A stretch of DNA of 64,000 bases. Source: Gammaproteobacteria bacterium HGW-Gammaproteobacteria-1. GTDB taxonomy: Bacteria > Pseudomonadota > Gammaproteobacteria > Thiohalomonadales > Thiohalomonadaceae. The notes beneath the pieces are model-generated. The model was not told the origin of the DNA. It made no database searches and saw only the letters and a program-made list of their open reading frames with translations. The position numbers were made by a program, and so were the translations under genes. Positions 5,393-26,435 of this stretch are shown here, one piece after another. Location: assembly GCA_002840095.1 (NCBI GenBank), contig PGZL01000012.1, positions 1 to 64,000 on the forward strand, in the 5' to 3' direction. How positions within the stretch are numbered: position 1 is the stretch's first letter; each line of letters opens with the position of its first letter.

Positions 5393-6093
5393 TGTTTGTG
5401 CGCTGTCGCGCGCTTATTTAAACGGGGGATTCCGTCCCCCTGCGCCGGGTTACTTTCTTTTGTCTCGCCAAAAGAAACTAACGAAAGAAAAGGCGACCCG
5501 ATTGCCGCGCCCTGCGGGTTCCCTGCGCTTCTCGCCCAAATCGGCGCTCGCCTACGCGCCATCCTGGCGCGAAGGCGAGGACCCGCCATCCCTGGCGGGT
5601 CCCCTTCGGGCTTAATCCGATTCGGGCTGCGATGCTCGGCGCGGCAGACGGGGGGAAAGCGGAAAGTCAAAATCAAAACCTCTCCGTTTCCCGTAGGGTG
5701 CGCACCGCGCACCGTATCTTTCGTTTGGCGCAACATTGGTGCGCAATGCGCACCCTACATTTCCTGTGTGCGCGAAGCGCACACCCTCCAGCGCGATGCC
5801 GTCAGGCGAGCCTGCCTTTGACTTTCAAACCCCTCTGTCTCGCCGAGCAACGCAGCCCGGGGCGGAATTGCCCGCAGGGGGCGCGCCATGGATGGCGCGC
5901 ATTCTTCCGTCGGCACATGGATGTGCCGTCGGAAGAACCCGCCCCGGGCGAGTAGCGCAGGGAACCGCGATAGCGGCGAGACATCGGGGCGGCCTTTCTT
6001 TTCGTTAGTTTTCTTTGGCCGAACAAAGAAAAGTAACCCGGCGTAGGGGGACGGAATCCCCCGTAAAAACACACCGCGCGTAGCGCACAAACA
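5393..6093. repeat. ~700-bp inverted-repeat element (two diverged copies back to back)
   Basis: The 848 bp between the cupin gene and the ATPase gene holds no convincing gene. Instead its two halves are homologous in opposite orientation. Both ends carry TGTTTGTGCGCT, then CGGGGGATTCCGTCCCCC, then GGGTTACTTT with a run of AAAGAAA, then GGTTCCCTGCGCT. Further in, both have a CTGCGGGC or CTTCGGGC block and GGGCTGCG-TGCTCGGCG. At the centre (5693-5758) sits a copy of the GTAGGGTGCGCAC palindrome that recurs elsewhere in the window. Open frames inside, on either strand, are translations of this repeat and have no start signals. It resembles non-autonomous repeat families scattered in proteobacterial genomes, but no transposase is present. 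Confidence 0.75.
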
Positions 6094-6183
6094 CACCACC
6101 TTGATCTGAATAACATTTTAAGCGTTAATCTAGAAGAATCTATCTAACGAACGCCACTTGACCATGCGTCGCGGGGACAGGAA

Positions 6184-7947
6184 ATGATACTCAACGGATT
6201 TGGGTTCTCTGGTTATCGAAGCTTCGGAAACGAATTGTCAAAAATTGCACCGTTGCGCAAGGTGAATCTAATTATTGGGCAGAACAATACAGGCAAGTCG
6301 AACATCGTAAATTTCTTACATCAGCAATACGCATACTTTACATCTATGGCCAGAGACCCACGCTCAACCAGAAGAGAGGCCTGCCCATTCAAGGAGATCG
6401 ATAAACACATATCAAACGAACGAGTTTTTCACAAAATAGCATTCCCAATTCAAAACGCTGAACTAGAGAAATATATCAAGCTTAAGTTGCAAAATAACAG
6501 CGAAAACAAACAATTAATCTCATTCGCGCAAAACGTCATCAAATCCCTACATCATCAAGATAGTGACCATACATGGTTCGTATATCAATCCAACTCGCCA
6601 GCCGGCGAGTATTCTCTTGTGCTCAACACCGAAGAATACGCCAACATACTACACCCAAATGAATGGCAGAGCCTTTGGCGCAGCATAACCGCCCAAGGAG
6701 GTGGCGACTTAAAACACCATTGGATCCCAGAAACCATAAAAGCGCTCGCCTATATTCCAGAAACATCTCCACCCATCGTCGTCATACCAGCAATCAGGAA
6801 AATTGGAGCATCGGGTAGCGAAGCCAATGACTTTAGCGGCGAAGGCATAATCGAGAGACTCGCAAAGATACAAAATCCGCCACTACAAAAACAAAGTGAT
6901 AAAGATAAATTCTTATCTATCAATAAATTTGTACAGAATGTACTCGAAAATGAAACCGCAATACTTGAAATTCCGTACGGACGGGACATGATTCTCGTCC
7001 ATATGGATGGAAAGACTCTTCCGCTGGAGTCCCTTGGAACAGGTGTTCATGAAGTAATAATTTTAGGTGCGGCCGCAACACTTCTCGAAAACACGGTCAT
7101 CTGTGTTGAGGAACCAGAACTCCACCTTCATCCCCTGCTGCAAAAGAAGTTAATCAAATACCTTTCCGAGAAAACCAACAACCAGTATTTTTTAACAACC
7201 CATTCCGCACATTTACTGGACTCTACAGAGGCCGAAATATTTCATGTCACGATGACTGATCGCGCATCCCATGTGGATGCCATATTCAGCACAAAGCAAA
7301 AATCCAGCATATGCAATGACCTTGGATATAGGGCATCTGATATTTTGCAGGCAAACTGCATCATTTGGGTTGAGGGCCCATCCGATCGCATATATCTAAA
7401 CCATTGGATTAGAGGTAGGAAACCTGACTTAACCGAAGGTATACATTACTCAATAATGTTCTACGGCGGCCGTCTTTTCAGCCACCTAACTGCATTAGAC
7501 GAAGACGAGACAACAGAAAGAGTTGACGATTTTGTTTCCGTGCGGAAATTAAACCGAAATACAGTAATCATGTTTGATAGTGACAAGTCGACTTCACACG
7601 CCAGACTCTCTGCAACAAAGAGTCGCCTTAAAGCGGAATTCAATGATGGACCAGGATTTGCTTGGATAACTAGCGGCAGGGAAATTGAAAACTATCTGGA
7701 TATGGATAAAGTCGAAGAAGCAGTTATTCAGACACATCCATCAGCTGACAAACTTGTTCGTAAATCCCAGTGGGATAATCTTCTGGAGTACTCGAAGAAG
7801 CGCACTGGCGAGATTCGGGTCGCGAACAAAGTAAAAGTGGCTCAGTTTTATACTGACACCAATCCCGCCGACTATGGCGTCCTCGATCTAGGAAAACGGG
7901 TAGATGAACTATTGCAATTCATCTTAGTATCCAATGGCCACAACTAA
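6184..7947 (+). CDS. OLD-family ATPase with TOPRIM nuclease domain (candidate defence gene)
   Basis: The 587 residues begin with an ABC/SMC-like ATPase. Walker A is GQNNTGKSN (residues 32-40). A late Walker B region reads CVEEPELHLHP, followed by TTHSAHLLD. The C-terminal part has TOPRIM features: an acidic motif in WVEGPSDR, a DSD motif in VIMFDSDKS, and EIENYL. This is the architecture of OLD-family overcoming-lysogenization nucleases, several of which act against phage. Class 2 OLD proteins such as GajA work with a helicase. None is encoded next door, so this looks like a stand-alone class 1 type. The gene is visibly AT-rich with codon use unlike its GC-rich neighbours, which together with the adjacent repeat element suggests transfer. 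GGGGACAGGAA precedes the ATG. Confidence 0.88.
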   Translation: MILNGFGFSGYRSFGNELSKIAPLRKVNLIIGQNNTGKSNIVNFLHQQYAYFTSMARDPRSTRREACPFKEIDKHISNERVFHKIAFPIQNAELEKYIKLKLQNNSENKQLISFAQNVIKSLHHQDSDHTWFVYQSNSPAGEYSLVLNTEEYANILHPNEWQSLWRSITAQGGGDLKHHWIPETIKALAYIPETSPPIVVIPAIRKIGASGSEANDFSGEGIIERLAKIQNPPLQKQSDKDKFLSINKFVQNVLENETAILEIPYGRDMILVHMDGKTLPLESLGTGVHEVIILGAAATLLENTVICVEEPELHLHPLLQKKLIKYLSEKTNNQYFLTTHSAHLLDSTEAEIFHVTMTDRASHVDAIFSTKQKSSICNDLGYRASDILQANCIIWVEGPSDRIYLNHWIRGRKPDLTEGIHYSIMFYGGRLFSHLTALDEDETTERVDDFVSVRKLNRNTVIMFDSDKSTSHARLSATKSRLKAEFNDGPGFAWITSGREIENYLDMDKVEEAVIQTHPSADKLVRKSQWDNLLEYSKKRTGEIRVANKVKVAQFYTDTNPADYGVLDLGKRVDELLQFILVSNGHN

Positions 7948-8068
7948 CTGATGGATTTAGTTCAGAACGATACTTAACGAAATCTTGCGGGTAGCACGCT
8001 CGCGAATTTTCCATGCAGAATATTCCTAAAGAATGCATAGCCGGGGCTATGCCACCCCTGAAGATAAC

Positions 8069-9211: not shown

Positions 9212-10432
9212 TCAGGCGAACCGATACCCCTTGGGCACCACCACGATGCCCTGTTCGCTCACCGTGAAGCGCTCGCGGTCGCGCTTGCTGTCGTAGCCGA
9301 TCTGCTCGCGCGGCGGAATTTCCACCCCCTTGTCGACGATGCAGCGGCGCAGGCGCGCGCCGGCGCCGACGCTGACGCCCTGGAACAGGATGGCGTCCTC
9401 GACGAAGGCGCCGTCGTCGATGAAGGCCTGGGGAAACAGGATGGAGTGCTGCACGCTGCCGCCGGCGATGACCACGCCGCCGGCGACGATGGAGTTGATG
9501 AAGATGCCCTCGGTGCCGGAGGTGCCGGGCACGGTGCGGGCCGGCGGGGTCTGCATCTGGTAGGAGCGGATGGGCCAGTCCTCCTGGTACAGGTCCAGGG
9601 GTGGCACCGGCTTGAGCAGGTCCATGTTGGCCTGGTAGTAGGCGTCGATGGTGCCCACGTCGCGCCAGTAGCGGTCGGGGGTGACGCGGCCGGTGTCGCC
9701 GCCGAAGCGGTAGGCCATCACCTTCTTGCTGCCGATGAGGCGCGGCAGGATGTCCTTGCCGAAGTCGTGGCTGGAGGAGGCGTCGGCGTGGTCGGCCTCC
9801 AGCTCGTCCAGCAGCAGGCGGCTGGAGAAGACGTAGATGCCCATGGACGCCAGCGCCTGATCCGGCTGGCCCGGTATGGGCTGCGGCTGCTCCGGCTTCT
9901 CCTCGAAGCCGGTGATGCGATCGCTGCCGTCCACCGCCATCACGCCGAAGGCGCGTGCCTCGGCCAGGGGCACTTCCATGGCCGCCACGGTGACGTCGGC
10001 GCCGTTTTCCTTGTGGGCGGTGAGCATGGCCTCGTAGTCCATGCGGTAGATGTGGTCGGCGGAGAGGATCAGCACCGCCTCGGCCTCGCTACGTTCCACC
10101 AGGTACAGGTTCTGGTAGATGGCGTCGGCGGTGCCCTGGTACCAGCGCTCGCCGGTGCGCATCTGCGGCGGCACCGGGGTGATGTACTCGCCCAGTTCCG
10201 GATTGAAGATGGACCAGCCGTCGCGCAGGTGTTTCTGCAACGAGTGCGACTTGTACTGGGTCAGCACCAGCACCCGGCGCAGGCCGGAGTGCAGGCAGTT
10301 GGCCAGCACGAAATCGATGATGCGGTACTTGCCACCGAAGGGCACGGCCGGCTTGGCGCGATCGGCCGTGAGCGGCTTGAGCCGGGTGCCGGTGCCGCCG
10401 GCAAGAACTACGGCTAGGGTCTGGTCCAGCAT
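9212..10432 (-). CDS. glgC: Glucose-1-phosphate adenylyltransferase
   Basis: GlgC makes ADP-glucose from ATP and glucose-1-phosphate, the committed step of bacterial glycogen synthesis, in the cytosol. The N-terminal nucleotidyltransferase fold shows [13 protein letters not shown], the [11 protein letters not shown] region and DHIYRMDY. The C-terminal part has the left-handed beta-helix sequence (hexapeptide-like [10 protein letters not shown]). At 406 residues from ATG 10432 it is of normal family length. The ATG has a GAGGTG site about ten bases upstream, whereas a GTG three codons earlier does not. No other glycogen gene is next to it, so it is probably a separate unit. Allosteric control by glycolytic metabolites is known for the family but not visible here. 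Confidence 0.96.
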
Positions 10433-10569
10433 GATGCACACACCTCTACGGGGTTGGTTTAGTCCCCATGGAGCAAGAAGCGCACCAGGACGAGGCAGGT
10501 GGTGTCCGAGGGGTGTTGTGGTCTGTGGCTTGTGTCAATTTGGTGCATGCCGCGGGGCAGGTGCACCAG

Positions 10570-10646
10570 CAAGTTGCAAGTGACAAGTTTCAAGTGGCAA
10601 GAAAAGGCTTTTCCACTTGTAGCTTGCAACTTGGAACTTGGAACTT
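10570..10646. repeat. 7-bp periodic inverted repeat (CAAGTTN type)
   Basis: The left half (10570-10601) repeats CAAGTNN every seven bases. The right half (about 10614-10646) repeats its complement, CTTGNAA, so the two can fold back. The right end overlaps the stop codon of the minus-strand HD-GYP gene (10645-10647). Confidence 0.75.
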
Positions 10647-13600
10647 ATTTACCATGCCAGGCGAAACCCTTTTCGCGGAACAGCCGCAGGCAGGCGTCCA
10701 CCACCACCGGGTCGAAGCGGGTGCCGCGGTGACGCTCGATCTCCCCCAGCGCGTCTTCCAGCGGCAGGGCCGCGCGGTAGGGCCGGTGCGAGGCCATGGC
10801 CTCGACCACGTCGGCGACGGAGAGGATGCGCGCCTCCAGGAGGATTTCATCGTCCTTGAGGCCCTTGGGATAGCCCGAGCCGTCCAGGCGCTCGTGGTGC
10901 TGTACCACCATGTCGGCCACGGGCCAGGGGAATTCGATACCCTTGACGATGTCGTTGCCCATCACCGGGTGGGACTGGATGATTTCGAACTCGGTGTCGC
11001 TGAGGTGGCCGGGGCGGTTGAGGAATTCGGCCGGCACGTAGATCTTGCCGATGTCGTGGATCAGGGCGCCCAGGCGCAGTCCTTCGGTACGGTCCTCGCC
11101 CAGACCCATTTCGGCGCCGATGGCCGTGGCCAGTTCCGCCACGCGCTGCTGGTGGCCGGCGGTGTAGGGGTCGCGCTTTTCGATGGTGATGGCGATGGCC
11201 TGGATGGTCTGCACCAGGGCGTGCTGCAGGCGCGCGCCGATGTGCTTGCGCTCTTCGTCCACCAGTTTGCGCGCGGTGATGTCGGTCAGGCTGGAACGGC
11301 TCTCCACCACCGTGCCCTGGTCGTCGAGCACCGGCTCCACTGACAGGCTGACCCAGATCACCTGGCCGTCCTTGCGCTGCATCTGCAGCTCGGCACCGTG
11401 CACCTTTCCGCCCAGGCGGAACTGCTCGAACACCTCCTGCGCCCGCGGCCGGCCGTCGGCGGTGTCGGCGTAGAACTGGAACACCTTCATCTGCGCCAGC
11501 TCCTCGCGGTCGTAGCCGAGCAGGCGCACCATGCCCTCGTTGAACTGCACCACGGCGCCGTCCTCGGCGCGCACCGAGCAATAGGCGGTGGGCGCGTATT
11601 CGTACAGCTGGTGATAGCGTTCCTCGCTGCGGGCCAGGTCCTGCTCCGCCCGCTCGCGCCGCAGGCGGCTGCGCTGGCTGACGATGCCGAAGGCGAGGTC
11701 GTTGGACAGCTCGGTGAGCAGGGCCACTTCTTCCTTGTCGAAGGCATCGGGATCGGCGGCGTCGATGGTGAGCACGCCGACGGCCTCGCTGCCGTGGCGC
11801 AGCGGCAGGGCGATGAGCGAGGCATAGCCGCGCTTGCGTGCCTCCTCGCGCCAGGGCGTGTAGGCGGGCTCGGTGAGCAGGTCGTGGGCGATGAAGATTT
11901 CGCCGCTGCGCTGCGCGGTGCCGGTGGGGCCGCTGCCCCATTCGTCCTCGCCCCAGCCGAAGCGCATGGTTTCCAGGTAACCGGCGTCGTGGCCGGCCCA
12001 GGCCACGGGCAGGATGCTCTTTTCCGCGTCCTGCTGCGGATAGCCCACCCAGGCCAGGCGATGGCCGCCCACCTCCACCAGCACGGTGCAGATGTCCTGC
12101 ACCAGTTGCTCCTCGCTCTCGGCACGCACCAGGGTTTCGTTGCCGCGGCTCAGGGTGCGCAGGGCGCGGTTGAGGCGCTGCAGCTCGCGCTCCGCGCGGC
12201 GCGTCTCGGTGACGTCCTGTACGGTGCCGATCATGCGCTGCGGCTTGCGCTGCGCATCGAACACCACCTGCCCCTTCTCGTGCACCACCTTCACCACCTC
12301 GTCCGGCAGCACGATGCGGTGATCGATTTCGTAGGGCGCCTCTTCGCGCAGCGTGGCGTTTACCGCGTCCTGCACCGCCTGCCGATCGTCGGGATGGACA
12401 TAACCCAGGAAGGCCTCGTAGGTGGCGCCGAAGGCCTGCGGCTCGACGCCGAAGATGCGGTAGATTTCGTCGGACCAGTACAGCGAGCCGGCCACGATGT
12501 CCCAGTCCCAGTTGCCCAGGCGCGCGATCTGCTGCGCCTCCTTCAGGCGCGCCTCGCTGCGCCGCACCCGCTCCTCGGCCAGCAGGCGCTTAAGGGCGTT
12601 GCTGATGATCTCGCCCGCGGCGCGCAGCATGCGCACATCCTCTTTCGCCCAGCTGCGCGGCTGCTTCACCACGTCGAAACCGATGTAGCCCTGGGTGTGA
12701 TCGCCGAAGGCCATGGGCACCACCAGCAGCGAACGGATGCCCTCGGCCAGGAACTCGTCGCGCTCCGCCGCCGCCTCGGGCGGCAGGGCCATGACGTCGG
12801 CGACGGATACCAGTTCGTTGTGCAGCAGCCGTTCCTGCAACCAGGGCAGCGCCTGCATCGACAGGGTGGCCAGGCGCCCGGCCTGCGGCACCACGCCGTC
12901 GGCGCACCATTCGTGGATCTCGCCCAGGCGCCCGGTGTCCGGGTCGAGGCTGAAGATGTAGGCGCGATCGGCGCCGACGAACTGCCCAATCAGCTGCAGG
13001 GCCTTGCGGATCTCGCGGCCGATGGAGCCGCTGTCGGCGGTGATGAAATGGCCGGCGATGCCGCCCACCACCGACTCGAAGGCGAGGCGGTACTTGAGCG
13101 CCTCTTCCGCCTCCTTCACCGAGCTCAGGTCCATCAGGGTGAAAACGTAGCCGGTGTGTTCGTTGCGATCGTTGCGCAGGGCGCTGGCGGTGAGGAACAC
13201 CGGCAGCTGCCGCCCGTTGCGCGCCGTCAGCACCGACTCGCCCATCCAGCCCTCGGGTTTGATGGCGTGGGTGAAGACGGCCTCCACCGGGGCGTGCTGG
13301 GCGGGTGCGAACAGCTCGAACATGGAGCGCCCCTCCAGTTCCGCGTGACTGGTGCCGAGCAGGCCGCACAGGGCGGGATTGCAGTAGGTGATGACGCGCC
13401 CGGTGTCGATGACCAGGATGCCCTCGCCGGCCTGGGCCACGGCATGGCTCAGGGTGCGGCGCTGGGCCTCGGCCTGCCGCTCGGCGGTGACGTCCTCCAT
13501 GATGTGGATGGCATGGCGGATGCTGCCGTCGATGTGGCGGATTCCGAAGGATTGCGACACGAAGATTTCGCCCGAGGGCAGCACCACTTCGTCGCCGTGG

Positions 13601-14928
13601 GCCTGCAGGCGATCGGGGAACTGGCGGCAGGCGGGCAGCGGCCCGTCGCTGCGCGGAAACACCTCCCAGTAGCGCTTGCCGATGATCTGCGATGCATCCA
13701 TCCCGGCCCGCGCGATATAGGCGGGATTGCCGTGCACGATGTGCATGTCCTTGTCGTGGATGAAGATGGGATGGGGGATGGCGTCGAAGGCATCGTGCCA
13801 GTCACGCTGGCTCAGCTCGACCCGGCGCCGGCTGTCGTCCAGGTCGCCGAGGGCGCGGCGCAGTTCGGCGGTGCGCTCCGCCACCCGTTGTTCCAGTTCG
13901 TCGCGCGCACGGCACAGATCGGCGTCGGTCACGCGCAGGCGGCGGTTGATGCGGCCGATATAGATCAGACCGCCCAGCAGCAGCACCACCACCAGCGCCC
14001 CGGCCAGCAGCCAGTACCAATACTGGCGCAAGACGTCCTCCAGCCGCACCTTGCCCAGATCGGCGTAGGGGCCGAGGTGCAGTTCGCGCAGCAGGTCGTG
14101 TACCGGCTGGTAGTCGGCCGGGATGGTCCAGCCGGCGGTATTGCCCCGCAACGCCGCCTCGCTGTCGGGCGGCATCTGCATCAGGGCCAGCGCCACGCTA
14201 TGGCCCAGGGCCTGGGGCGTATGCCTCACCCGCGCCATGGGCCACTCCGGGTACAGCCGGGTGCTGCTCAGAAACACGAACTCGGGATGGCTGGCAGGCT
14301 GGATGACGCGATAGTCGTTGAGATTGATCTTGCCTTCCTTGGCCATGCGTTCGAGGGTGTCGCTGCGCACGGTGCCGGCGTCCACGGTGCCGTCGCGCAC
14401 GGCGTAGACCACCGCATCGTGGGTGCCGCCGAAACGCATGGGCCGGAAATCGCGGTAGGGGTCGATGCCGGCCTGCTTCAGTTCGCGCCAGGCGGCATGA
14501 AACCCGCCGAGGGAAAGCTCGTCCACCGCCATGAAGGACTGGCCGACAAGGTCGGTGAATTCGCGCAAATCGTCGCGCCCGGCGCGGGCGAAAACCACGC
14601 CGCCGAAGTGGGTATAGGCCTGCCCCTCGTCGCGGTTGCGCAGGGTGGCGATGCGGCTGGCGCCGTAGCGCAGCTCCATCTCCACGTAATAGGACGAGTT
14701 GGCCAGGACGAAATCCACGCTGCCGTCGCGCACCGCCGGCAGCAACTCGTCGAAATCCAGGGGCACGATGACGAAGTGGTAACCCGGAATGTGGCGGGTC
14801 AGGTGCGCGGCGGTGGCCGACCACATGCGCATGGTCTGCTCCGGGCCGCGCCACGCCAGCACGCCGATCTCCACCTCCACCGGGGCGGCGGCCACGGCGC
14901 TGCCCAGCCACAACAGCAGCGCGAGCAC
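10645..14928 (-). CDS. PhnD-like sensor, multi-PAS/GAF HD-GYP phosphodiesterase
   Basis: This very large signalling protein has 1427 residues. It contains a signal-like N-terminus (LLLWLGSAVAAAP), a periplasmic PhnD/TauA-type ligand-binding domain (about 20-290) and one membrane helix (about 305-328). A short coiled coil, two PAS domains (about 370-620), GAF (about 630-790), PAS (about 805-910), GAF (about 925-1085), PAS (about 1105-1225) and HD-GYP (about 1235-1427) follow. The HD pair is near 1291, HHE near 1344, then DGSGYP, so the catalytic set is intact. A periplasmic oxyanion or phosphonate-like ligand probably controls c-di-GMP hydrolysis inside. The GTG at 14928 gives no positive N-region, so the true start may be slightly upstream. 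It follows the GGDEF gene on the same strand by 126 bp. Confidence 0.9.
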   Translation of the reverse strand: MLALLLWLGSAVAAAPVEVEIGVLAWRGPEQTMRMWSATAAHLTRHIPGYHFVIVPLDFDELLPAVRDGSVDFVLANSSYYVEMELRYGASRIATLRNRDEGQAYTHFGGVVFARAGRDDLREFTDLVGQSFMAVDELSLGGFHAAWRELKQAGIDPYRDFRPMRFGGTHDAVVYAVRDGTVDAGTVRSDTLERMAKEGKINLNDYRVIQPASHPEFVFLSSTRLYPEWPMARVRHTPQALGHSVALALMQMPPDSEAALRGNTAGWTIPADYQPVHDLLRELHLGPYADLGKVRLEDVLRQYWYWLLAGALVVVLLLGGLIYIGRINRRLRVTDADLCRARDELEQRVAERTAELRRALGDLDDSRRRVELSQRDWHDAFDAIPHPIFIHDKDMHIVHGNPAYIARAGMDASQIIGKRYWEVFPRSDGPLPACRQFPDRLQAHGDEVVLPSGEIFVSQSFGIRHIDGSIRHAIHIMEDVTAERQAEAQRRTLSHAVAQAGEGILVIDTGRVITYCNPALCGLLGTSHAELEGRSMFELFAPAQHAPVEAVFTHAIKPEGWMGESVLTARNGRQLPVFLTASALRNDRNEHTGYVFTLMDLSSVKEAEEALKYRLAFESVVGGIAGHFITADSGSIGREIRKALQLIGQFVGADRAYIFSLDPDTGRLGEIHEWCADGVVPQAGRLATLSMQALPWLQERLLHNELVSVADVMALPPEAAAERDEFLAEGIRSLLVVPMAFGDHTQGYIGFDVVKQPRSWAKEDVRMLRAAGEIISNALKRLLAEERVRRSEARLKEAQQIARLGNWDWDIVAGSLYWSDEIYRIFGVEPQAFGATYEAFLGYVHPDDRQAVQDAVNATLREEAPYEIDHRIVLPDEVVKVVHEKGQVVFDAQRKPQRMIGTVQDVTETRRAERELQRLNRALRTLSRGNETLVRAESEEQLVQDICTVLVEVGGHRLAWVGYPQQDAEKSILPVAWAGHDAGYLETMRFGWGEDEWGSGPTGTAQRSGEIFIAHDLLTEPAYTPWREEARKRGYASLIALPLRHGSEAVGVLTIDAADPDAFDKEEVALLTELSNDLAFGIVSQRSRLRRERAEQDLARSEERYHQLYEYAPTAYCSVRAEDGAVVQFNEGMVRLLGYDREELAQMKVFQFYADTADGRPRAQEVFEQFRLGGKVHGAELQMQRKDGQVIWVSLSVEPVLDDQGTVVESRSSLTDITARKLVDEERKHIGARLQHALVQTIQAIAITIEKRDPYTAGHQQRVAELATAIGAEMGLGEDRTEGLRLGALIHDIGKIYVPAEFLNRPGHLSDTEFEIIQSHPVMGNDIVKGIEFPWPVADMVVQHHERLDGSGYPKGLKDDEILLEARILSVADVVEAMASHRPYRAALPLEDALGEIERHRGTRFDPVVVDACLRLFREKGFAWHGK

Positions 14929-15054
14929 CGCCAGGCCGCGTCGAGCGGCAGGGGGTACGACACGAATTGGCGGTCTGGACTGGTACAGCGCGGCGACCCT
15001 CTTTGCTTATTCGTTAGTGTAGGTGTCCACGCAGAACGCGCAAAAAAGCATACG

Positions 15055-17124
15055 TTAATCGTGGTCTTTATAGAAGCAGTAGCGGTTGCGTCCGCTCGCC
15101 TTGGCGCGGTACATCGCCCCGTCGGCGTGCTGCAACAGGGCATCGATGGTATCGCCATCCGCGGGATAGAGCACGATGCCGATGGAAGCCGACAGGATCA
15201 CCTCGCGCTCCTGTATTTCGAACGGTTGCTGCAGTACGTGCAGCACCTTCTGCGCGACGATGCCGGCGCCGTCCAGGCCGTGGACCTGCGCCAGCACCAT
15301 GGCGAATTCGTCGCCGCCGAGGCGGGCCACGGTATCACTGTCGCGCATGCAGCCCAGCAGCCGTTGCGCCGCCTGCTGCAGCAATTCGTCACCGGCGGCA
15401 TGGCCCAGGCTGTCGTTGACCTGCTTGAAGCCGTCGAGGTCGATGTACAGCAGTCCGGCCTCGCGCCCACCGGCATCGGCCAGGTTCAGCGCCTGCTCCA
15501 GGCGCACGGCGAACAGGTCGCGGTTGGGCAGACCGGTGAGGCCGTCGTAGTGGGCCTGGCGCCAGATGGCTTCCTCCTGCGCCTTGCGTTCGGTGATGTC
15601 CTCCTTCACCGCCACGAAGTGGGTGACCCGGCCCTGTTCGTCCTTGATGGGCGATATCTGCGCGCTCTCCCAGAACAGGTGCCCGTCCTTGGCCTTGTTC
15701 AGCACCTCGCCGTGCCACACCTCGCCGCCCTTGATGGTGGCCCACAGCCGTTCGTAGGTCTTGAGCGGCGTGGTGCCCGACTGCCACATACGCGGATTTT
15801 CACCTATCACCTCTTCGGGCTGGTAGCCGGTCATCTCGACGAAACGCGGATTGACGTACTCGATGGTGCCCTCGCTGTCGGTGATGATGGCCGAGGCCGG
15901 GCTGTGCTCCACGGCGGAGGACAGCTTGCGCAGCTGCGCCTCGGCCTGTTTGCGCGCGGTGATGTCGCTGAAGGTGAGCACGGCGCCGAGCAGCTGGCCG
16001 TCGGTGTGCAGCGGGTGGGAACGGTACTCCACCGGGAAGCTGCTGCCGTCGGCGCGCCAGAACACGTCAGCATCGTCGTGCACCACGCGACCGTCGCGCA
16101 GGGTGGTGTGCAGCGCGCATTCGGCCAGGGGACGGGGCTGGCCGTCGGCATAGCTGTGGTGGATCAGTTCGTGCACCGGCAGGCCCAGCAGCTGCTCCGG
16201 GCGCTCCAGTCCCAGCAGGCGCAGCGCCTCGGGATTGACCAGGGTGCAGGTGCCCTCCAGGTTCATGCCGACGATGCCCTCGCCCGAGGACTCGATGAAC
16301 AGGCGCAGCTGCGCCTCCGCCTGGCGGCGTTCCGCCACTTCGTCCCGCAGCTCGGCGGTGCGTTGCTGCACCAGCACCTCGGTCTGCGCCCGGGCTCCTT
16401 CCAGCGCCAGCATCTGGCGGCGGAAGCGCGACAGGGCGAACAGGGTCAGGCCGGACAGCAGCAGCCACACCGCCAGGTGGGTCAGGGCGACGTTGCGCAG
16501 CTGCACCGCCTCCGGGGCCAGCAGCGGCGCCGCGGCGAAGGAAACGCTCACCCCGCCGCGGATGTCGCCCAGCTTGTAGCCCTGGTGCAGGTGGCATTTC
16601 AGGCAAGGCTGCTGCACCCGTAGCGGCGCGATGAAGCGGAACACGGCGTCGCCGCCCTGATCCACCAGTTCGCTCACCTCGCCCGTCCCCTGCTCGAAGC
16701 GCTCCAGCTGGGTGCGCTCCCAGGGGTCCGGGGCATTGTGGGGATTGAGCGGCTTGAGGCTGGTGAGGTGCAGGCGCAGCTGGCTCAGCTCCATCACCAC
16801 GTCGGTGAGCTGGCGCGTCATATAGGCCGGGTTGATCATGGTGAGATGGGTGCCCGAGGGCGTGGTGATCTCGCGGTCCGGCACTTCCAGGTAGGGATTG
16901 GGCCGGGTGTACTCGTCGATGGGGGCATAGACGCCGCCGTGGCGCGCGTTCCACAGGCGTACCGACTCCACCATCTTGAACACGAACTGGGCCCGATCAT
17001 TGGCCAACTGGTAGGCCTTGCGCTCCATTTCGGCCTGGTTCCACAGAAACGAGGCCAGCACCACGAGGGTCCAGATCAGGATCGGCAGCGGCCAGTAGCG
17101 GTATTGGAGTATGACTTTGCTCAT
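15055..17124 (-). CDS. DUF3365 haem-motif PAS-GGDEF diguanylate cyclase
   Basis: Residues 12-28 form a membrane helix. A periplasmic DUF3365/Tll0287-like domain (about 30-205) carries a CLKCH c-type haem motif at 174-178. A second helix lies near 215-235. A coiled coil, two PAS domains (about 260-505) and a GGDEF domain (about 515-689) follow. The catalytic GGDEF is at 603-607. An inhibitory-site RxxD (RDSD, 594-597) stands exactly five residues before it, so the enzyme should make c-di-GMP and be product-inhibited. No EAL domain is present. The haem suggests redox or gas sensing. The gene precedes the large HD-GYP gene on the same strand, pairing synthesis and breakdown of c-di-GMP in one probable operon. 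Confidence 0.92.
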   Translation of the reverse strand: MSKVILQYRYWPLPILIWTLVVLASFLWNQAEMERKAYQLANDRAQFVFKMVESVRLWNARHGGVYAPIDEYTRPNPYLEVPDREITTPSGTHLTMINPAYMTRQLTDVVMELSQLRLHLTSLKPLNPHNAPDPWERTQLERFEQGTGEVSELVDQGGDAVFRFIAPLRVQQPCLKCHLHQGYKLGDIRGGVSVSFAAAPLLAPEAVQLRNVALTHLAVWLLLSGLTLFALSRFRRQMLALEGARAQTEVLVQQRTAELRDEVAERRQAEAQLRLFIESSGEGIVGMNLEGTCTLVNPEALRLLGLERPEQLLGLPVHELIHHSYADGQPRPLAECALHTTLRDGRVVHDDADVFWRADGSSFPVEYRSHPLHTDGQLLGAVLTFSDITARKQAEAQLRKLSSAVEHSPASAIITDSEGTIEYVNPRFVEMTGYQPEEVIGENPRMWQSGTTPLKTYERLWATIKGGEVWHGEVLNKAKDGHLFWESAQISPIKDEQGRVTHFVAVKEDITERKAQEEAIWRQAHYDGLTGLPNRDLFAVRLEQALNLADAGGREAGLLYIDLDGFKQVNDSLGHAAGDELLQQAAQRLLGCMRDSDTVARLGGDEFAMVLAQVHGLDGAGIVAQKVLHVLQQPFEIQEREVILSASIGIVLYPADGDTIDALLQHADGAMYRAKASGRNRYCFYKDHD

Positions 17125-17350
17125 CGGACACCCAGCTTAGGAATAGCGCCTTCCGATGGCCCGGACGCGGCGTGTGGCGCGTCATGAATAGTAGGGATGG
17201 AGGCCGGCCCCTGCGTGACCGGGTTCACATTATGGGTGGAGCCGCAGGGAATAGGCAAATGGGCGCCGCCGACCCCGGCCAACGGCCCGTCCGGCGCCTT
17301 GGCATGCCGCTTGCTGAACAACCATGGATTTCAGTCTGGATAGATAGACC

Positions 17351-17950
17351 ATGCCGCAGCAGGACCCCAAGCCCGGATTACGCGTGTTGCTGTGCGACGA
17401 GGACCGCGGCCGGGCGGCGCTCCTGGAACAGGCCCTGGCCGACGCCGGCTACAGCGTCATCGCCCGGCTGGCGGGCGCGGAGAACCTCAGCGCCGAGGTG
17501 GCGCGCCACCAGCCCGACGTGATCATCATCGATCTCGACTCCCCCGACCGCGACACCCTGGAGCAGATGCGCAGCATCAGCCGCGAACAGCCGCGGCCCA
17601 TCGTCATGTTCGCCGAGGACGACGACAGCGGCACCATCAACCAGGCCATCAAGGCCGGGGTCAGTGCCTACGTGGTCGACGGCCTGAGCGGCAAGCGGGT
17701 GCGGCCGGTGATGGAAGTGGCCATTGCCCGCTTCCGCGAATACCAGGCCCTGCGCGAGGAACTGGCGCGCACCCGCAGCTCGCTGGAGGAGCGCAAGATC
17801 ATCGACCAGGCCAAGGGCCTGCTGATGCAGCACCGCAAGATGAACGAAAATGAGGCCTACCAGGCCCTGCGCAAGCTGGCCATGGACCAGGGCAAGAAAC
17901 TGCCCGAAGTGGCGCGCAACGTCATTGCCATCATGCAGTTGCTTGGATAA
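17351..17950 (+). CDS. nasT: NasT-type ANTAR antitermination regulator
   Basis: The protein has 199 residues. An N-terminal receiver-like fold (about 10-125) contains the acidic CDED and the IIDLDSPD phospho-acceptor region. A coiled-coil linker and a C-terminal ANTAR RNA-binding domain (about 140-198) follow, reading RKIIDQAKGLLMQ then NEAYQALRKLAMD. ANTAR proteins bind twin hexaloop hairpins in nascent RNA and stop terminator formation. In NasST systems NasS holds NasT inactive without nitrate. Such a leader lies between this gene and nrtA (18325-18460), and a NasS-like gene lies downstream (22107). The ribosome site is weak. It is transcribed toward the nrt genes but has its own 3' region with repeats. 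Confidence 0.93.
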   Translation: MPQQDPKPGLRVLLCDEDRGRAALLEQALADAGYSVIARLAGAENLSAEVARHQPDVIIIDLDSPDRDTLEQMRSISREQPRPIVMFAEDDDSGTINQAIKAGVSAYVVDGLSGKRVRPVMEVAIARFREYQALREELARTRSSLEERKIIDQAKGLLMQHRKMNENEAYQALRKLAMDQGKKLPEVARNVIAIMQLLG

Positions 17951-17956
17951 AGGCAG

Positions 17957-18015
17957 ATGCAAGATGCAAGTTACAAGATACAAGTGAATGTACTCGCTGC
18001 GCTCGTGTTGTTTTG
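17957..18015. repeat. 7-bp periodic repeat after nasT
   Basis: Starting six bases after the nasT stop, GCAAGAT/ACAAGAT units repeat every seven bases (17957-17986). They are followed by a segment complementary to one near 29430 (ACGAGCGCAGCGAG). It is one half of the element found whole at 29358-29481. A separate GTCGGGCTTCAGCCCGAC palindrome lies at 18100-18117. Confidence 0.65.
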
Positions 18016-18293
18016 AATCGAAACTAATGGTGCGCGCAGCGCATCCACCGGCCGCACACCGGTCGCGAATGCGATTCGCTCCTACCCGGTACATCGTGGG
18101 TCGGGCTTCAGCCCGACAACGGTGGTGAGCGGTCGCAATTGCCGAACCGACGCCCGCCCCGCATCGATGCACCGTAAACAGGCAACATGCCTCGCCTTGG
18201 TGCAGCGCAACCCTCGCGCACCAGCCCCGTCACAGCGCATCGCGCACCCTGATTCCTTATTACTGCTGGCCTCCCGGGCCGGTGCACCACCTC

Positions 18294-18309
18294 TGGCACG
18301 ACGGTTGCA
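18294..18309 (+). promoter_or_regulatory. Sigma-54 promoter of the nitrate assimilation operon
   Basis: TGGCACG-N4-TTGCA matches the -24/-12 consensus for RpoN holoenzyme with no mismatch. Transcription would begin near 18320, just before the first ANTAR hairpin. A nitrogen-responsive activator such as NtrC would be expected to drive it. GGTGC/GCACC motifs lie at about 18198-18288, but no clean NtrC site could be fixed. Confidence 0.85.
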
Positions 18310-18324
18310 AAACACCTGACAAGC

Positions 18325-18374
18325 ACCGGCAACGAAGCCGGTCTCACCCGAACGCACAGTGCCCAATGGCGGGC
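18325..18374 (+). ncRNA. Two-hexaloop ANTAR target in the nrtA leader
   Basis: Hairpin 1 (18325-18342) has the 6-bp stem ACCGGC/GCCGGT and the loop AACGAA. Hairpin 2 (18361-18374) has the stem GCCC/GGGC and the loop AATGGC. Both loops have six bases with A at position 1 and G at position 4, the recognition rule known for ANTAR proteins. The 18-base linker is on the long side. The pair sits between the predicted start of transcription and an intrinsic terminator, and the ANTAR gene nasT is immediately upstream. Confidence 0.75.
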
Positions 18375-18408
18375 CCGCGGCGGGTGACGGCAACAGGCTG
18401 AACAGGAC

Positions 18409-18460
18409 AAAGGCGTCCATGCGTGTGGATTTCGATCCGCACGGATGGACGCCTTTTTTA
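18409..18460 (+). terminator. Leader terminator (attenuator) before nrtA
   Basis: A 22-bp stem with one mismatch and one G-U pair (18409-18430 with 18435-18458) closes a TTCG tetraloop and ends in a run of seven Ts. It stands 35 bp before the nrtA ATG and downstream of the promoter, so it must be read through for the operon to be expressed. This is the expected target of NasT antitermination. Confidence 0.88.
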
Positions 18461-18494
18461 TTTCCCGAAATTCCGCAACCAGGGGAGAGAGGCA

Positions 18495-19886
18495 ATGACG
18501 CAACACCGACACACCAAGGGCAACACGCGCCGCGATTTCATCAGGCACTCGGCACTGGCGCTGGCCGCCACGCTGCTGCTGGGCGGCGCCGCGCAGGCGG
18601 CGAAGCTGGAAAAGGAGGAGCTGAAGTTCGGCTTCATCAAGCTCACCGACATGGCGCCGCTGGCGGTCGCCTACGAAAAGCGTTACTTCGAGGATGAAGG
18701 GCTGTACGTCACCCTGGAGGCCCAGGCCAACTGGAAGGTGCTGCTGGATCGCGTCATCACCGGCGAACTGGACGGCGCGCACATGCTGGCCGGCCAGCCG
18801 CTGGGCGCCACCATCGGCTTCGGCACCCAGGCCCACATCATCACCGCCTTCTCCATGGATCTGAACGGCAACGGCATCACCGTCTCCAACGCCGTGTGGG
18901 AAGAGATGAAGCAGTACATCCCCAAGGACAAGGACGGCAAGCTGATCCACCCGATCAAGGCCGACGCACTCAAACCGGTGATCGAGAAATACAAGAAGGC
19001 CGGTAAGCCCTTCAACATGGGCATGGTGTTCCCGGTCTCCACCCACAACTACGAGCTGCGCTACTGGCTCGCCGCCGGCGGCATCAATCCCGGCTACTAC
19101 GCGCCGCACAAGGGCGACACCTCGGGCCAGATCAAGGCCGACGCCCTGCTCTCCGTGACGCCGCCGCCGCAGATGCCGTCGACGCTGGAAGCCGGCACCA
19201 TCTACGGCTACTGCGTGGGCGAACCGTGGAACCAACAGGCCGTGTTCAAGGGCATCGGCGTGCCGGTGATCACCGACTATGAAATCTGGAAGAACAACCC
19301 GGAGAAGGTGTTCGGCGTTTCCGCCGCCTGGGCCGAGAAGAACCCCAACACCCACAAGGCCGTGGTGAAGGCGCTGATCCGCGCCGCCAAGTGGCTGGAC
19401 GAAAACGACAACGCCAACCGCGCCGAGGCCGTCAGCATCCTGGCCAAGCCGCAATACGTCGGCGCCGACGCCAAGGTCATCGCCAACTCCATGACCGGCA
19501 CCTTCGAATACGAAAAGGGCGACAAGCGTGCGGTACCGGACTTCAACGTCTTCTTCCGCTATCACGCCACCTACCCCTACTACTCCGACGCCGTCTGGTA
19601 CCTGACCCAGATGCGCCGCTGGGGCCAGATCAGCGAGGCAAAGCCGGACAGCTGGTACATGGACACGGCGAAGAAGGTATACCGCCCGGACATTTACGCC
19701 GCCGCCGCCGCCGAACTGATTGCCGAAGGCAAGATGAAGGCCGAAGAGTTCCCCGACTTCGCCAAGGAGAGCGGCTTCCGCGCACCGCAAAGCGAGTTCA
19801 TCGACGGCGTCACCTACGACGGCCGCACGCCCAACGCCTACCTGAAGCAATTCAAGATCGGCCTGAAGGACAAGGAGCAAATCTGA
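18495..19886 (+). CDS. nrtA: Nitrate ABC transporter substrate-binding protein
   Basis: NrtA/CmpA-family periplasmic protein of 463 residues that captures nitrate (or nitrite) for import. The N-terminus has a twin-arginine signal (TRRDFIRHS then a hydrophobic run ending AQA), so it is probably exported folded by Tat. Family blocks include [36 protein letters not shown] and [11 protein letters not shown]. The ATG at 18495 follows GGGGAGAGAGG, 35 bp after the leader terminator. The same frame is open a little further upstream but crosses the terminator, so that start is not credible. It is the first gene of nrtABD-nasS-nirBD-nasA. Confidence 0.95.
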
Positions 19887-19950
19887 CGCGCCGGCCGCCG
19901 CGGCAGCAATGCCGCGGCGGCCGCCCCCGACACAGCGCAAGGGTGTGACC

Positions 19951-20973
19951 ATGAACGCATATATCACCGCCACCAAGAACCTGCTCAATCCCGCCACGCT
20001 GGCACGCCTGCGCGGCGCCCTGAGCTGGCAGCTGCTGCCGAAGCTGACCACCGCCATTGCCCGCAGCCTGCTGGTGCCGCTGCTCGCAATCGCACTGTTC
20101 CTCGGCCTGTGGGCGGCCACGGCAAAAAACATCCAGACCTCCCTCGGCGATCTGCCCGGCCCGGTGCAGGTCTGGGGCCAGGCGATATCGCTGGTGCAGG
20201 AACATCGGACCGAACGCCGCAAGGCGGACGAATTCTATGCCCGCCAGGAACAGCGCAATGCGGAAAAGCTGGCGGAAGATCCCACGGCCGAGGTGAAGAT
20301 CCGCCCCTATACCGGCAAGCCGACCTTCATCGATCAGATCGGCACCAGCCTGCTCACCGTGGCCACCGGCTTCATCATCGCCTCGCTCATCGCCATCCCC
20401 ATCGGCATCGTCTGCGGCATGAGCGCCACGCTGTACACCGCACTCAATCCGTTGATCCAGATCTTCAAGCCGGTGTCGCCGCTGGCCTGGCTGCCGCTGG
20501 TGACCATGGTGGTGAGCGCGCTCTACGTCAGCGACGACCCGCTGTTCGCCAAGTCCTTCGTCACCTCGGCCATCACCGTCACTCTGTGCTGCCTGTGGCC
20601 GACCATCATCAACACCACCGTGGGCGTGTCCTCGGTGAGCAAGGATTTGCTCAACGTCAGCCGCGTGCTGCGCCTGGGCTGGTTCACCAAGACCATGAAG
20701 ATCGTGCTGCCCTCCGCCATCCCGATGATGTTCACCGGCATGCGCCTGTCGCTCGGCATCGGCTGGATGGTGCTCATCGCCGCCGAGATGCTGGCGCAGA
20801 ACCCAGGCCTCGGCAAATTCGTCTGGGACGAGTTCCAGAACGGCAGCTCCAATTCACTGGCCCGCATCATGGTCGCCGTGTTCACCATCGGCCTGGTCGG
20901 CTTCGCCCTCGACCGCGGCATGCTGCTGCTGCAACGCCGCGTGAGCTGGGACAAGAACGCCGTACTGCGCTGA
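19951..20973 (+). CDS. nrtB: Nitrate ABC transporter permease
   Basis: Integral membrane permease of the NrtB/SsuC family, 340 residues with about six or seven membrane helices. The first is near residues 35-55, followed by a charged periplasmic loop (RTERRKADEFYARQEQRN) that is longer than in SsuC. The binding-protein-dependent transport signature contains EMLAQNPGLGKFVWDEFQ near residue 285. It forms the channel through which NrtA delivers nitrate. The ATG at 19951 follows AAGGGTG, 64 bp after nrtA. An 8-bp periodic repeat begins 17 bp after its stop. Confidence 0.94.
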   Translation: MNAYITATKNLLNPATLARLRGALSWQLLPKLTTAIARSLLVPLLAIALFLGLWAATAKNIQTSLGDLPGPVQVWGQAISLVQEHRTERRKADEFYARQEQRNAEKLAEDPTAEVKIRPYTGKPTFIDQIGTSLLTVATGFIIASLIAIPIGIVCGMSATLYTALNPLIQIFKPVSPLAWLPLVTMVVSALYVSDDPLFAKSFVTSAITVTLCCLWPTIINTTVGVSSVSKDLLNVSRVLRLGWFTKTMKIVLPSAIPMMFTGMRLSLGIGWMVLIAAEMLAQNPGLGKFVWDEFQNGSSNSLARIMVAVFTIGLVGFALDRGMLLLQRRVSWDKNAVLR

Positions 20974-20990
20974 ATTTGGCAACAACCTGT

Positions 20991-21117
20991 CGCAGAGACG
21001 CAGAGACGCAGAGACGCAGAGACGCAGAGAAATGAATGGCGAAACACTTTATTATCAATGCAGCACGACAACAGCGATCGTGCCGGAGCATTCGAAACTC
21101 TGCGTCTCCGCGCCTGG
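20991..21117. repeat. 8-bp periodic inverted repeat (CGCAGAGA type)
   Basis: Five near-perfect CGCAGAGA units occupy 20991-21030. The inverted half, CTCTGCGTCTCCGCG, is at 21098-21117. It lies between nrtB and nrtD inside the operon and could form a long hairpin in the message. Confidence 0.85.
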
Positions 21118-21194
21118 GAAATATGTTCCAGACATTTCCAACCGATTACATCCCTGTAATCGTCTGCGACAGATTGTTTTATAGGAGCTACCCC

Positions 21195-22034
21195 ATGACT
21201 TACCTGAGCCTGGAAAACCTGAGCATCACCTTCAATACCGACAACGGCCCGCTCAACGTGCTGAACGACGTGTCGGTGAAGATGGACAAGGGCGAATTCG
21301 TCTCCCTCATCGGCCATTCCGGCTGCGGCAAGTCGACGGTGCTCAACATCGTCGCCGGCCTGCTCAAGGCCAGTAAGGGCGGCGTGCTGCTGGAGAACCG
21401 CGAAGTGGACGAGCCCGGCCCCGACCGCGCCGTGGTGTTCCAGAACCACTCGCTGCTGCCCTGGCTCAGCGTGTACGACAACGTGCGCCTCGCTGTGGAC
21501 ACCGTGTTCAAGCACAGCAAAAGCAAACAGCAGCGGCATGATTGGACCCTGCACAACCTGGAACTGGTGCACATGTCCCACGCCCTGGACCGCCGTCCCG
21601 ATGAAATCTCCGGCGGCATGAAGCAGCGCGTCGGCATCGCCCGCGCCCTGGCCATGGAGCCCAAGGTGCTGCTGATGGACGAACCCTTCGGTGCGCTGGA
21701 TTCGCTCACCCGCACCCACATGCAGGATTCGCTGATGGAGATTCAGGCGCGGCTCAACAACACCGTAATCATGATCACCCACGACGTCGACGAGGCCGTG
21801 TTGCTGTCCGATCGCATCGTGATGATGAGCAACGGCCCCAGCGCCACCGTGGGCGAGATCCTGCACATCGATCTGCCGCGCCCGCGCCACCGCCTGAGCC
21901 TGGCCGACGACCCGAAGTACAACCACTACCGCGCCGCCGTGCTCAAGTTCCTGCACGAGCGGCACGCGCAGCCCGACGTCCCCGTTACCACGACAGCGGC
22001 GGAAAAGACGCCGCGGCTGCGGGCGGTGGGATAA
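21195..22034 (+). CDS. nrtD: Nitrate ABC transporter ATP-binding protein
   Basis: ABC ATPase of 279 residues that powers nitrate uptake. Walker A is GHSGCGKST (near residues 39-47), the Q-loop is in VVFQNHSLLPW, the signature is ISGGMKQR, Walker B is VLLMDEPFGALD, and the switch histidine is in ITHDVDEA. It has a single ABC domain without the NrtA-like C-terminal extension of cyanobacterial NrtC, so it corresponds to NrtD. The ATG at 21195 with AGGAG eleven bases upstream is chosen over an earlier in-frame start that would translate the intergenic repeat. A GAGTTTC repeat starts three bases after the stop. Confidence 0.95.
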   Translation: MTYLSLENLSITFNTDNGPLNVLNDVSVKMDKGEFVSLIGHSGCGKSTVLNIVAGLLKASKGGVLLENREVDEPGPDRAVVFQNHSLLPWLSVYDNVRLAVDTVFKHSKSKQQRHDWTLHNLELVHMSHALDRRPDEISGGMKQRVGIARALAMEPKVLLMDEPFGALDSLTRTHMQDSLMEIQARLNNTVIMITHDVDEAVLLSDRIVMMSNGPSATVGEILHIDLPRPRHRLSLADDPKYNHYRAAVLKFLHERHAQPDVPVTTTAAEKTPRLRAVG

Positions 22035-22036
22035 AT

Positions 22037-22071
22037 AGTTTCGAGTTTCGAGTTTCGAGTTTCGAGTTTCG
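22037..22071. repeat. 7-bp tandem repeat (GAGTTTC)
   Basis: About five GTTTCGA units follow the nrtD stop by three bases. No inverted half is nearby. The unit is the same as in the longer array at 59751-59927. Confidence 0.9.
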
Positions 22072-22106
22072 GAAAATCAAATTGCAGGTTTGTTGGGAGT
22101 CAAGAC

Positions 22107-23423: not shown

Positions 23424-23424
23424 A

Positions 23425-23551
23425 CGCAAAGACGCAAAGGCCGCAAAGATCGCAAAGGTGTTGATATGAGGACATGCACTGTCATCACTATCGTCACTCC
23501 AAAAGGCACAGATATCCTTTGCGCCCTTTGCGTACTTTGCGCCTTTGCGTT
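23425..23551. repeat. 8/9-bp periodic inverted repeat (CGCAAAGA type)
   Basis: CGCAAAGN units begin one base after the nasS stop (23425-23459). Their complement, CCTTTGCGN, is at 23516-23551, and the two halves enclose about 56 bp. Confidence 0.85.
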
Positions 23552-23584
23552 GAAGTCTTTTGACTCTTAACGGAGATCGCCCCC

Positions 23585-26041: not shown

Positions 26042-26090
26042 CCCGACAGAGCTGTGTCGGGTTACGCCCTAACGGGCTAACCCGACCTAC
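26018..26090. repeat. Palindromic element (GTAGGTCGGGTTAGC) at the nirB stop
   Basis: The ends are 15-bp perfect inverted copies (GTAGGTCGGGTTAGC and its complement). The inner part is also self-complementary around AACCCGACA and TGTCGGGTT. The nirB stop TAA lies inside it. It could work as a hairpin between nirB and nirD. Confidence 0.85.
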
Positions 26091-26120
26091 GACTCACCAC
26101 CGAATAACGAGGAACCGACC

Positions 26121-26435
26121 ATGAACGACTGGATCACCATAGGAAAACTGGAAGACATTCCGCCTCAGGGCGCACGCGTGGTTCAGACCGCGGCCGGAGA
26201 GATCGCCGTCTTTCGCGCCAGGAGCGATGCGGTGTTCGCCCTGGCCAACCGCTGTCCGCACAAGGGCGGACCGCTGTCCGAGGGCATCGTGTTCGACCAC
26301 CACGTCGCCTGCCCGCTGCACAACTGGAAGATCAGCCTGGAAAGCGGCGAGGCCATGGCGCCGGACCAGGGCTGCGCGCGACGCTACGCAGTACGTGTCG
26401 AGTCCGGGACCGTGCAGTTGAACCTTAACATCTAA
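26121..26435 (+). CDS. nirD: Assimilatory nitrite reductase, small subunit
   Basis: Rieske-type [2Fe-2S] protein of 104 residues that partners NirB. The two ligand motifs are CPHKGG (near residue 47) and CPLHNW (near residue 66), each giving one cysteine and one histidine. It lacks a signal peptide, as expected for a cytosolic enzyme. ATG 26121 follows GAGGAACCGACC, 79 bp after nirB. The stop TAA is directly continuous with the CGCAGAGA repeat at 26434. Confidence 0.95.
   Translation: MNDWITIGKLEDIPPQGARVVQTAAGEIAVFRARSDAVFALANRCPHKGGPLSEGIVFDHHVACPLHNWKISLESGEAMAPDQGCARRYAVRVESGTVQLNLNI

Follow-up and report, generated by a model that had tools for sequence, protein, structure and literature searches.

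The 64,000-nucleotide stretch of Gammaproteobacteria bacterium HGW-Gammaproteobacteria-1 analysed here (contig PGZL01000012.1; hereafter the window) carries, side by side on its minus strand, a gene for a membrane-bound diguanylate cyclase and a gene for an HD-GYP phosphodiesterase, two enzymes with opposite effects on the second messenger cyclic diguanosine monophosphate (c-di-GMP). As judged from the sequences, this is a real pair of a sensor cyclase and a sensor phosphodiesterase, in which the parts are known and the combination is new. The basis consists of the domains and motifs, the predicted folds, the shared strand, an adjacency that includes a case of swapped gene order, and pairs on separated branches of the tree of the sensor domain. 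We lean slightly towards the hypothesis that the two genes form a set-point module for c-di-GMP with two periplasmic inputs. The genes and their parts are the following.

15055..17124, minus strand: membrane diguanylate cyclase gene, 689 amino acids (P0002), encoding a transmembrane helix, a periplasmic sCache_heme domain (Tll0287/DUF3365), a second transmembrane helix, two PAS domains and GGDEF (open reading frame, Pfam, motifs)
16537..17022, minus strand: predicted periplasmic haem-c sensor domain (PF11845), residues 35-196 (Pfam, structure model with a predicted local distance difference test score, pLDDT, of 84, match to 5B82 at Z 16.5)
16591..16605, minus strand: CLKCH haem-attachment motif, residues 174-178 (motif search)
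15583..16284, minus strand: two cytoplasmic PAS domains, residues about 281-514 (Pfam)
15082..15555, minus strand: GGDEF domain, residues 524-681, with the RxxD inhibitory site (RDSD) five residues ahead of GGDEF (Pfam, motifs)
10645..14928, minus strand: HD-GYP gene with a PhnD-type sensor, P0001, listed with 1427 amino acids; an upstream start, ATT at 14967, is possible (open reading frame, Pfam, comparison of start regions)
14116..14868, minus strand: predicted periplasmic PhnD-like domain (Phosphonate-bd, PF12974), TtrS-like, residues 21-271, followed by a transmembrane helix at about 307-330 (Pfam, NCBIfam, alignment, model)
11272..13449, minus strand: cytoplasmic array of PAS and GAF domains, residues about 494-1219, with one more PAS ahead of the array (Pfam)
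10702..11184, minus strand: HD-GYP phosphodiesterase domain, residues 1249-1409 (Pfam, motifs)

Every assigned domain scored far above its Pfam cut-off, and the matches are therefore not due to chance. In the cyclase the Tll0287-like domain (DUF3365, PF11845) reached 81.1 bits against a cut-off of 24.1 and GGDEF 168.4 against 23.8, and in the HD-GYP protein PF12974 reached 137.7 against 27 and HD_5 133.3 against 27.2; EAL, FIST, HisKA and HATPase gave no Pfam match in either protein. The transmembrane helices of both proteins were placed from sequence and structure models. The active-site stretch of the cyclase, RDSDTVARLGGDEF, has both GGDEF and RxxD intact, and the position of RDSD gives the spacing expected of an inhibitory site; the pattern R..D.{5}GG[DE]EF was found in all ten sCache_heme-GGDEF proteins compared. 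The HD-GYP protein retains HHERLDGSGYP, HDIGK and the N-terminal HxxR, and HDIGK was found together with HHExxDGxGYP in 9/9 open reading frames checked, two pairs of which represent the same genes fetched twice. The intact catalytic motifs in both genes rule out that these are orphan or broken genes. A sequence-only reading of this DNA had described a DUF3365 protein with CLKCH, GGDEF and an intact RxxD, followed on the same strand by a PhnD-domain HD-GYP gene, and this was borne out by Pfam, the motif positions and the gene coordinates; its view of the two as opposite enzymes also holds at the level of the motifs.

The AlphaFold model of the haem sensor domain (nine orthologues; pLDDT as listed above) has Tll0287 as its best match among solved structures (5B82, with a root-mean-square deviation of 2.8 over 135 aligned residues), the next rows having Z scores of 11.8 and 10.6. 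A profile search of solved structures with the haem domain recovered 5B82 at an E-value of 1e-4 and 3B47 at 1.3; the single sequence of the domain as query gave nothing of note. DUF3365 has been redefined as sCache_heme in a preprint, in the accessible passages of which the stand-alone members are described as having a Cys/His-ligated haem and a redox-like behaviour, and a signalling-fused member without the axial cysteine, the only such protein tested for nitric oxide (NO), as binding NO tightly, releasing it slowly and forming no stable O2 complex (PMC12889525). By its GGDEF output and its missing axial cysteine, the cyclase appears to belong to the signalling members of the NO type: the only cysteines ahead of residue 260 are 174 and 177, both of which are in CLKCH. 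Two other signalling proteins in the same genome (L001, L004) likewise have no cysteine beyond the haem motif, whereas the stand-alone paralog in this genome (L002) carries an additional cysteine in its sensor, Cys83, and two more in the signal peptide. Across the wider set, 82/87 sensor domains lack an extra cysteine in the periplasmic part as cut. The window genome furthermore encodes CcmF, and its three cytochrome d1 hits all fall inside a single 10-kb segment, which is the picture that a nirS cluster would give. Because the tested cysteine-less signalling domain binds NO tightly without a stable O2 complex, and in view of the cysteine contrast with L002, the cytochrome d1 hits and CcmF, we consider NO to be the best-supported and, by analogy, the most likely ligand. 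The previous suggestion of redox or gas sensing through haem is thus upheld in its haem part by the fold and CLKCH, and narrowed in its ligand.

The PhnD-like domain is modelled with a pLDDT of 90, and its best fold match is HtxB (Z 26.8, 258 aligned, 2.3 Å). The matches to HtxB, ArrX and PtxB all lie at Z about 25-27, and the ligands of these proteins are hypophosphite (HtxB), arsenate or sulfate (ArrX) and phosphite (PtxB). The model is consistent with the earlier proposal of a periplasmic anion sensor. The TtrS model NF040750 of NCBIfam matched residues 18-346, covering sensor and transmembrane helix only, with 165.3 bits, which is below its equivalog cut-off of 750, and the PhnD transporter model TIGR03431 reached 64.3 bits, below its cut-off of 261.1. 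R27, Y81, S139, H170, D171 and R188 are invariant in an alignment of 12 PhnD sequences, and among the nearest PhnD relatives from other genomes are PhnD-PAS-histidine kinases next to LuxR-type regulators, as in L084. The PhnD-type kinases TtrS and ThsS are described in the accessible part of the source as responding to tetrathionate and thiosulfate (PMC5408782), and our best single guess for the ligand is a sulfur oxyanion such as one of these two.

In the database, the order to which the window genome belongs consists of one family, which we sampled with 20 genomes (the window genome being G000). The HD-GYP gene is present in 6/20 and the cyclase in 7/20, with both in four (G000, G001, G002 and G005), and in all four the two genes are adjacent on one strand. 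The cyclase comes first in G000, G001 and G002, with gaps of 126, 183 and 54 nucleotides and a divergent nasT gene, while the order is swapped in G005 (Chromatiales bacterium SZUA-493, also recovered as L100), where the HD-GYP stop codon lies 2 nucleotides ahead of the cyclase ATG. The cyclase is missing from G003, which has kept the upstream leader and a 3' scar, RSCFYEGPV-stop (compare RYCFYKDHD-stop in the window), with the HD-GYP gene now located behind the upstream region of the deleted cyclase. The PhnD tree (27 rows after removal of two short hits and identical copies, three of the rows being very long-branched) groups G003 with G002 (support 89/96), which makes it likelier that the cyclase was deleted in G003 than that it was inserted later elsewhere; losses of the pair thus do occur. 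No cyclase is found in G004 either, the HD-GYP gene of which is split into two overlapping frames of 486 and 934 amino acids (L074:3898-8042, minus strand), either by decay or through an assembly error.

The region between and around the two genes contains the following elements.

14929..15054, minus strand: intergenic gap between the cyclase and HD-GYP genes, with no terminator-like site (terminator scan)
15016..15051, minus strand: two-part element ATGCTT-N-CCTACACT, directly after the cyclase stop codon, possibly a second promoter or a regulator site (conservation)
17125..17350, no strand assigned: divergent intergenic region from the cyclase gene to nasT (comparison)
10560..10650, minus strand: stem-loop between the HD-GYP gene and glgC (minimum free energy -28.4, z -2.5), which could end the transcript (fold statistics)

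G000 to G003 (four of the five genomes of the genus) each have exactly one copy of the two-part element, always at this locus; the element is absent from G004 and has been retained in G003 although the cyclase is gone. Its single copy at this locus rules out a regulon site, and it bears no likeness to a standard promoter. A sigma-70 promoter for the pair was also rejected, the one upstream match (17258-17229) being no better than those in shuffled sequences. Judging from the reading frame, translation of the HD-GYP gene probably begins elsewhere than at the listed GTG (14928): started there, the protein has a signal peptide whose beginning is uncharged, whereas the frame is open further upstream to a TAA and the extension yields a proper signal peptide, IRVVPPAARRGLAVLALLLWLGSAVAA. 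In alignments made by eye, position 14967 of the minus strand reads ATT where G003 has ATG, and position 15003 reads AAG where G002 has ATG; the degenerate start may reflect either a base error or the use of a rare start codon. The gap to the cyclase is 126 nucleotides with GTG 14928 and shrinks to 87 nucleotides if ATT 14967 is used. A dispersed intergenic inverted-repeat element resembling AAGTTGCAAGCTACAAGTGG was also observed, at 10613-10632 (minus strand) after the HD-GYP gene and at 17968-17987 (plus strand) after nasT.

Beyond the family, sCache_heme loci were collected with the peptide patterns LWNA[RG]HGG and T[MLK][IV]NPAYM, and the best 80 of 568 were kept, a selection from named genomes that totals 1.26 Mb and is biased towards the subtype of the window cyclase; the HD-GYP and PhnD profiles used to scan them were grown from the protein of the window itself, so that distant members may escape. 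Three PhnD genes were found in the 80 loci (L094, which is G002, L100, which is G005, and L159), all of them direct neighbors of the sCache_heme gene on the same strand, with gaps in the scan of 55, -24 and 29 nucleotides. The third is from Tepidiphilus sp. J10 (L159:707-5000), where a hybrid histidine kinase with a PhnD sensor is followed, after 29 nucleotides, by an sCache_heme histidine kinase. Eleven HD-GYP genes were identified, ten of which are direct neighbors of the sCache_heme gene: those in L094 and L100, seven that follow an sCache_heme protein without GGDEF (L113, L116, L118, L119, L122, L123 and L141) and one in a planctomycete (L139). Among the seven, the members scanned (L113 and L141) encode a DUF3369-HD-GYP protein directly behind a histidine kinase, and we consider these seven loci candidates for periplasmic NO two-component systems that feed c-di-GMP breakdown, parallel to NosK-NosR.

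The tree of the sensor domain has 87 rows from 92 hits (L094, L100, L114 and L132 were dropped as duplicates, and a name clash cost one of the two L117 proteins). Three changes in PhnD pairing are needed on it, all of them forced by well supported branches, and the pairing therefore appears either to have arisen more than once or to have been lost repeatedly. A more far-reaching hypothesis, which we offer tentatively and regard as doubtful, is that the sensing of NO in the periplasm through a covalent haem c was wired to HD-GYP-based c-di-GMP breakdown several separate times, with the window pair acting as a comparator of the respiratory state that sets NO against a sulfur or nitrogen oxyanion. 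The separate wirings would be those of the window, of SZUA-493 with its swapped order, of the Rhodocyclales-type and Methylococcaceae loci in which an HD-GYP gene comes directly after the sensor gene (a kinase and a DUF3369-HD-GYP protein in the members scanned), and of the planctomycete, where a hybrid kinase overlaps the HD-GYP gene.

For the set-point module itself, we infer the following sequence of events. The cyclase would carry a covalent haem c in its periplasmic Cache domain, and with no axial cysteine the sixth site of the haem would be open or weakly filled and could bind NO released by a periplasmic nitrite reductase. The signal may then pass through the second transmembrane helix and the two PAS domains to GGDEF, the activity of which would be further capped by its product at RxxD; by analogy with H-NOX-linked cyclases, NO could be expected to lower c-di-GMP synthesis. 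The phosphodiesterase, anchored by one transmembrane helix after its signal peptide, would respond to a small oxyanion on which the TtrS-like PhnD domain closes, and the change would be relayed through PAS and GAF to the HD-GYP domain. Encoded by neighboring genes, which may be co-transcribed, the two enzymes could be in physical contact and together tune one local pool of c-di-GMP, shared between them, to the current state of anaerobic nitrogen and sulfur respiration.

We also considered the possibility that the genes are neighbors by descent only, each protein acting in the global c-di-GMP network from a promoter of its own. Several observations weigh against a local module and point in this direction. 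The HD-GYP gene lacks the cyclase in 2/6 carriers in the family (G003, G004) and the cyclase lacks the HD-GYP gene in 3/7 (G013, G014, G019), so that five of the nine family genomes with at least one of the two genes carry just one, which rules out an obligate pair. In a class-wide sample of 369 genomes, where two candidates were scored in each and the count of 3/369 is a lower bound, one genome from outside the order (G266) likewise encodes the HD-GYP protein (50%), and an orthologue of the cyclase is missing from it. The conserved element just ahead of the HD-GYP gene, present in four of the five genus genomes including the cyclase-less G003, may be a promoter for this gene. The three changes on the sensor tree could partly be losses, and the window genome encodes many other c-di-GMP enzymes, making the locality of the pool an assumption. 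Descent alone is nevertheless difficult to reconcile with the swapped order and the 2 nucleotides between the genes in G005, with the adjacency in every family genome that has both genes and with the neighboring PhnD and sCache_heme genes in Tepidiphilus, which have kinase outputs, and we think it unlikely. The idea of one unit and local module in the sequence-only reading is accordingly supported by the adjacency in 4/4 genomes, and weakened by the five genomes with a single gene and the possible separate promoter.

The two ligands assumed in the module hypothesis also have their competitors. The haem domain could be a redox or oxygen sensor instead of an NO sensor, given that Tll0287, with which the family was founded, is of the redox type and that the signalling member tested oxidizes rapidly in air, according to the passages available (PMC12889525), and that haem cyclases already known, such as DgcO, sense O2 (PMC8846402, likewise in part). 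Two genomes, G005 and G013, have the cyclase and no cytochrome d1 hit in a search that covered this cytochrome but neither NirK nor further sources of NO, which loosens the link to NirS; a strict co-occurrence of the cyclase with a nirS-type nitrite reductase was rejected, the same search giving hits in 5/7 cyclase genomes and 6/13 others, with no clear link. Yet the cyclase is of the same type as the tested cysteine-less domain, with its slow NO release and lack of a stable O2 complex in the passages cited above (PMC12889525), and a nirS-type cluster is present in the window genome, so that redox or O2 sensing seems to us somewhat improbable. The question is more evenly poised for the PhnD domain. 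Phosphonate, phosphite or phosphate, or else nitrate or nitrite in connection with the nas cluster, could quite conceivably take the place of a sulfur oxyanion, though we rate this at a little below even chances: the ligands of the closest solved structures are hypophosphite, phosphite, arsenate or sulfate, and the nas genes are divergent neighbors in G000 to G003, whereas the sequence of the domain is far closer to TtrS than to the PhnD transporters and the HD-GYP genes of G004 and G005 have no nas neighborhood. The absence of nitrate assimilation genes around the gene in these two genomes also rules out this neighborhood as a key to the ligand.

To our knowledge, the haem proteins of the H-NOX and NosP routes are all cytoplasmic. 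These are the routes from NO into c-di-GMP named in the accessible part of a review (PMC8846402). If the module hypothesis is correct, NO would be read in the periplasm, where denitrifiers make it, next to a phosphodiesterase that reads an anion, and two respiratory cues would be weighed in one messenger pool. NO binding by this type of haem domain is a recent finding, described only in a 2026 preprint (PMC12889525). With the signalling members in cluster 2 of that study the cyclase shares CXXCH, the Tll0287-like fold, a signalling output and the lack of an axial cysteine, whereas the protein tested in that work carries HAMP and lacks a cyclase; the passages on sCache_heme describe no HD-GYP or PhnD neighbor (PMC12889525).

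As far as the accessible parts of the sources go, the closest precedent in logic is the DgcO-PdeO (dosCP) operon of E. coli, and the closest for NO wired to an HD-GYP protein is NosP-NosK-NosR. In the former, a sensor cyclase and a sensor phosphodiesterase are likewise encoded together, with haem-based gas sensing on the cyclase, but both are haem O2 sensors (protoglobin and PAS) and the phosphodiesterase is of the EAL type (PMC8846402). The window pair resembles it in having a cyclase and a phosphodiesterase adjacent on the same strand, and differs in that both sensors are predicted to be periplasmic, the second being a PhnD-type anion binder, and in that the enzyme is HD-GYP rather than EAL. 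The NosP system also directs an NO input to an HD-GYP protein of c-di-GMP metabolism, but NosP is a FIST-domain haem protein that works via a kinase and phosphotransfer (PMC12570481), whereas the sensors in the window are fused to the enzymes without a kinase. The TtrS and ThsS sensor kinases share the PhnD-like periplasmic domain (PMC5408782); in the window protein an HD-GYP output replaces the kinase, and the score is far under the TtrS equivalog cut-off. Neither the combination of a periplasmic haem c, a PhnD sensor and HD-GYP nor HD-GYP together with PhnD or phosphonate binding was found in the literature searched, which was mostly outside subscription journals.

The pair is flanked by the following genes.

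17351..17950, plus strand: NasT-type ANTAR response regulator, first gene of a divergent nitrate assimilation cluster, with the same neighbor in G001 to G003 (Pfam, locus comparison)
9212..10441, minus strand: glgC, downstream neighbor on the same strand, kept in G001, G003 and G004 (Pfam, NCBIfam, locus comparison)

The nitrate assimilation cluster extends over 17351-29200 (plus strand) and includes the ANTAR regulator, a nitrate-type ABC transporter, nirB and a molybdopterin reductase, as well as a NasS-like gene at 22107-23423, a second binding-protein-like gene that lacks a signal peptide. Three more HD-GYP genes were identified in the 64 kb: one with GAF (741-2381, plus strand), one with CBS-PAS-GAF (2523-4871, plus strand) and one with CHASE-PAS-GAF (30604-34752, minus strand), the HD-GYP domain of which has 69% identity to that of the 10645-14928 gene. 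The G+C content drops from about 0.65 to 0.44 at 6001-8000 and to 0.50-0.53 at 42000-46000, and the former segment contains a possibly acquired gene for an AAA_15/AAA_21 ATPase (6184-7947). Finally, a weakly glycosyltransferase-like gene is located at 36789-37889 (minus strand; best NCBIfam E-value 1e-4), a relative of which (L075:6266-7468, minus strand) is the immediate upstream neighbor of the G005 HD-GYP gene.

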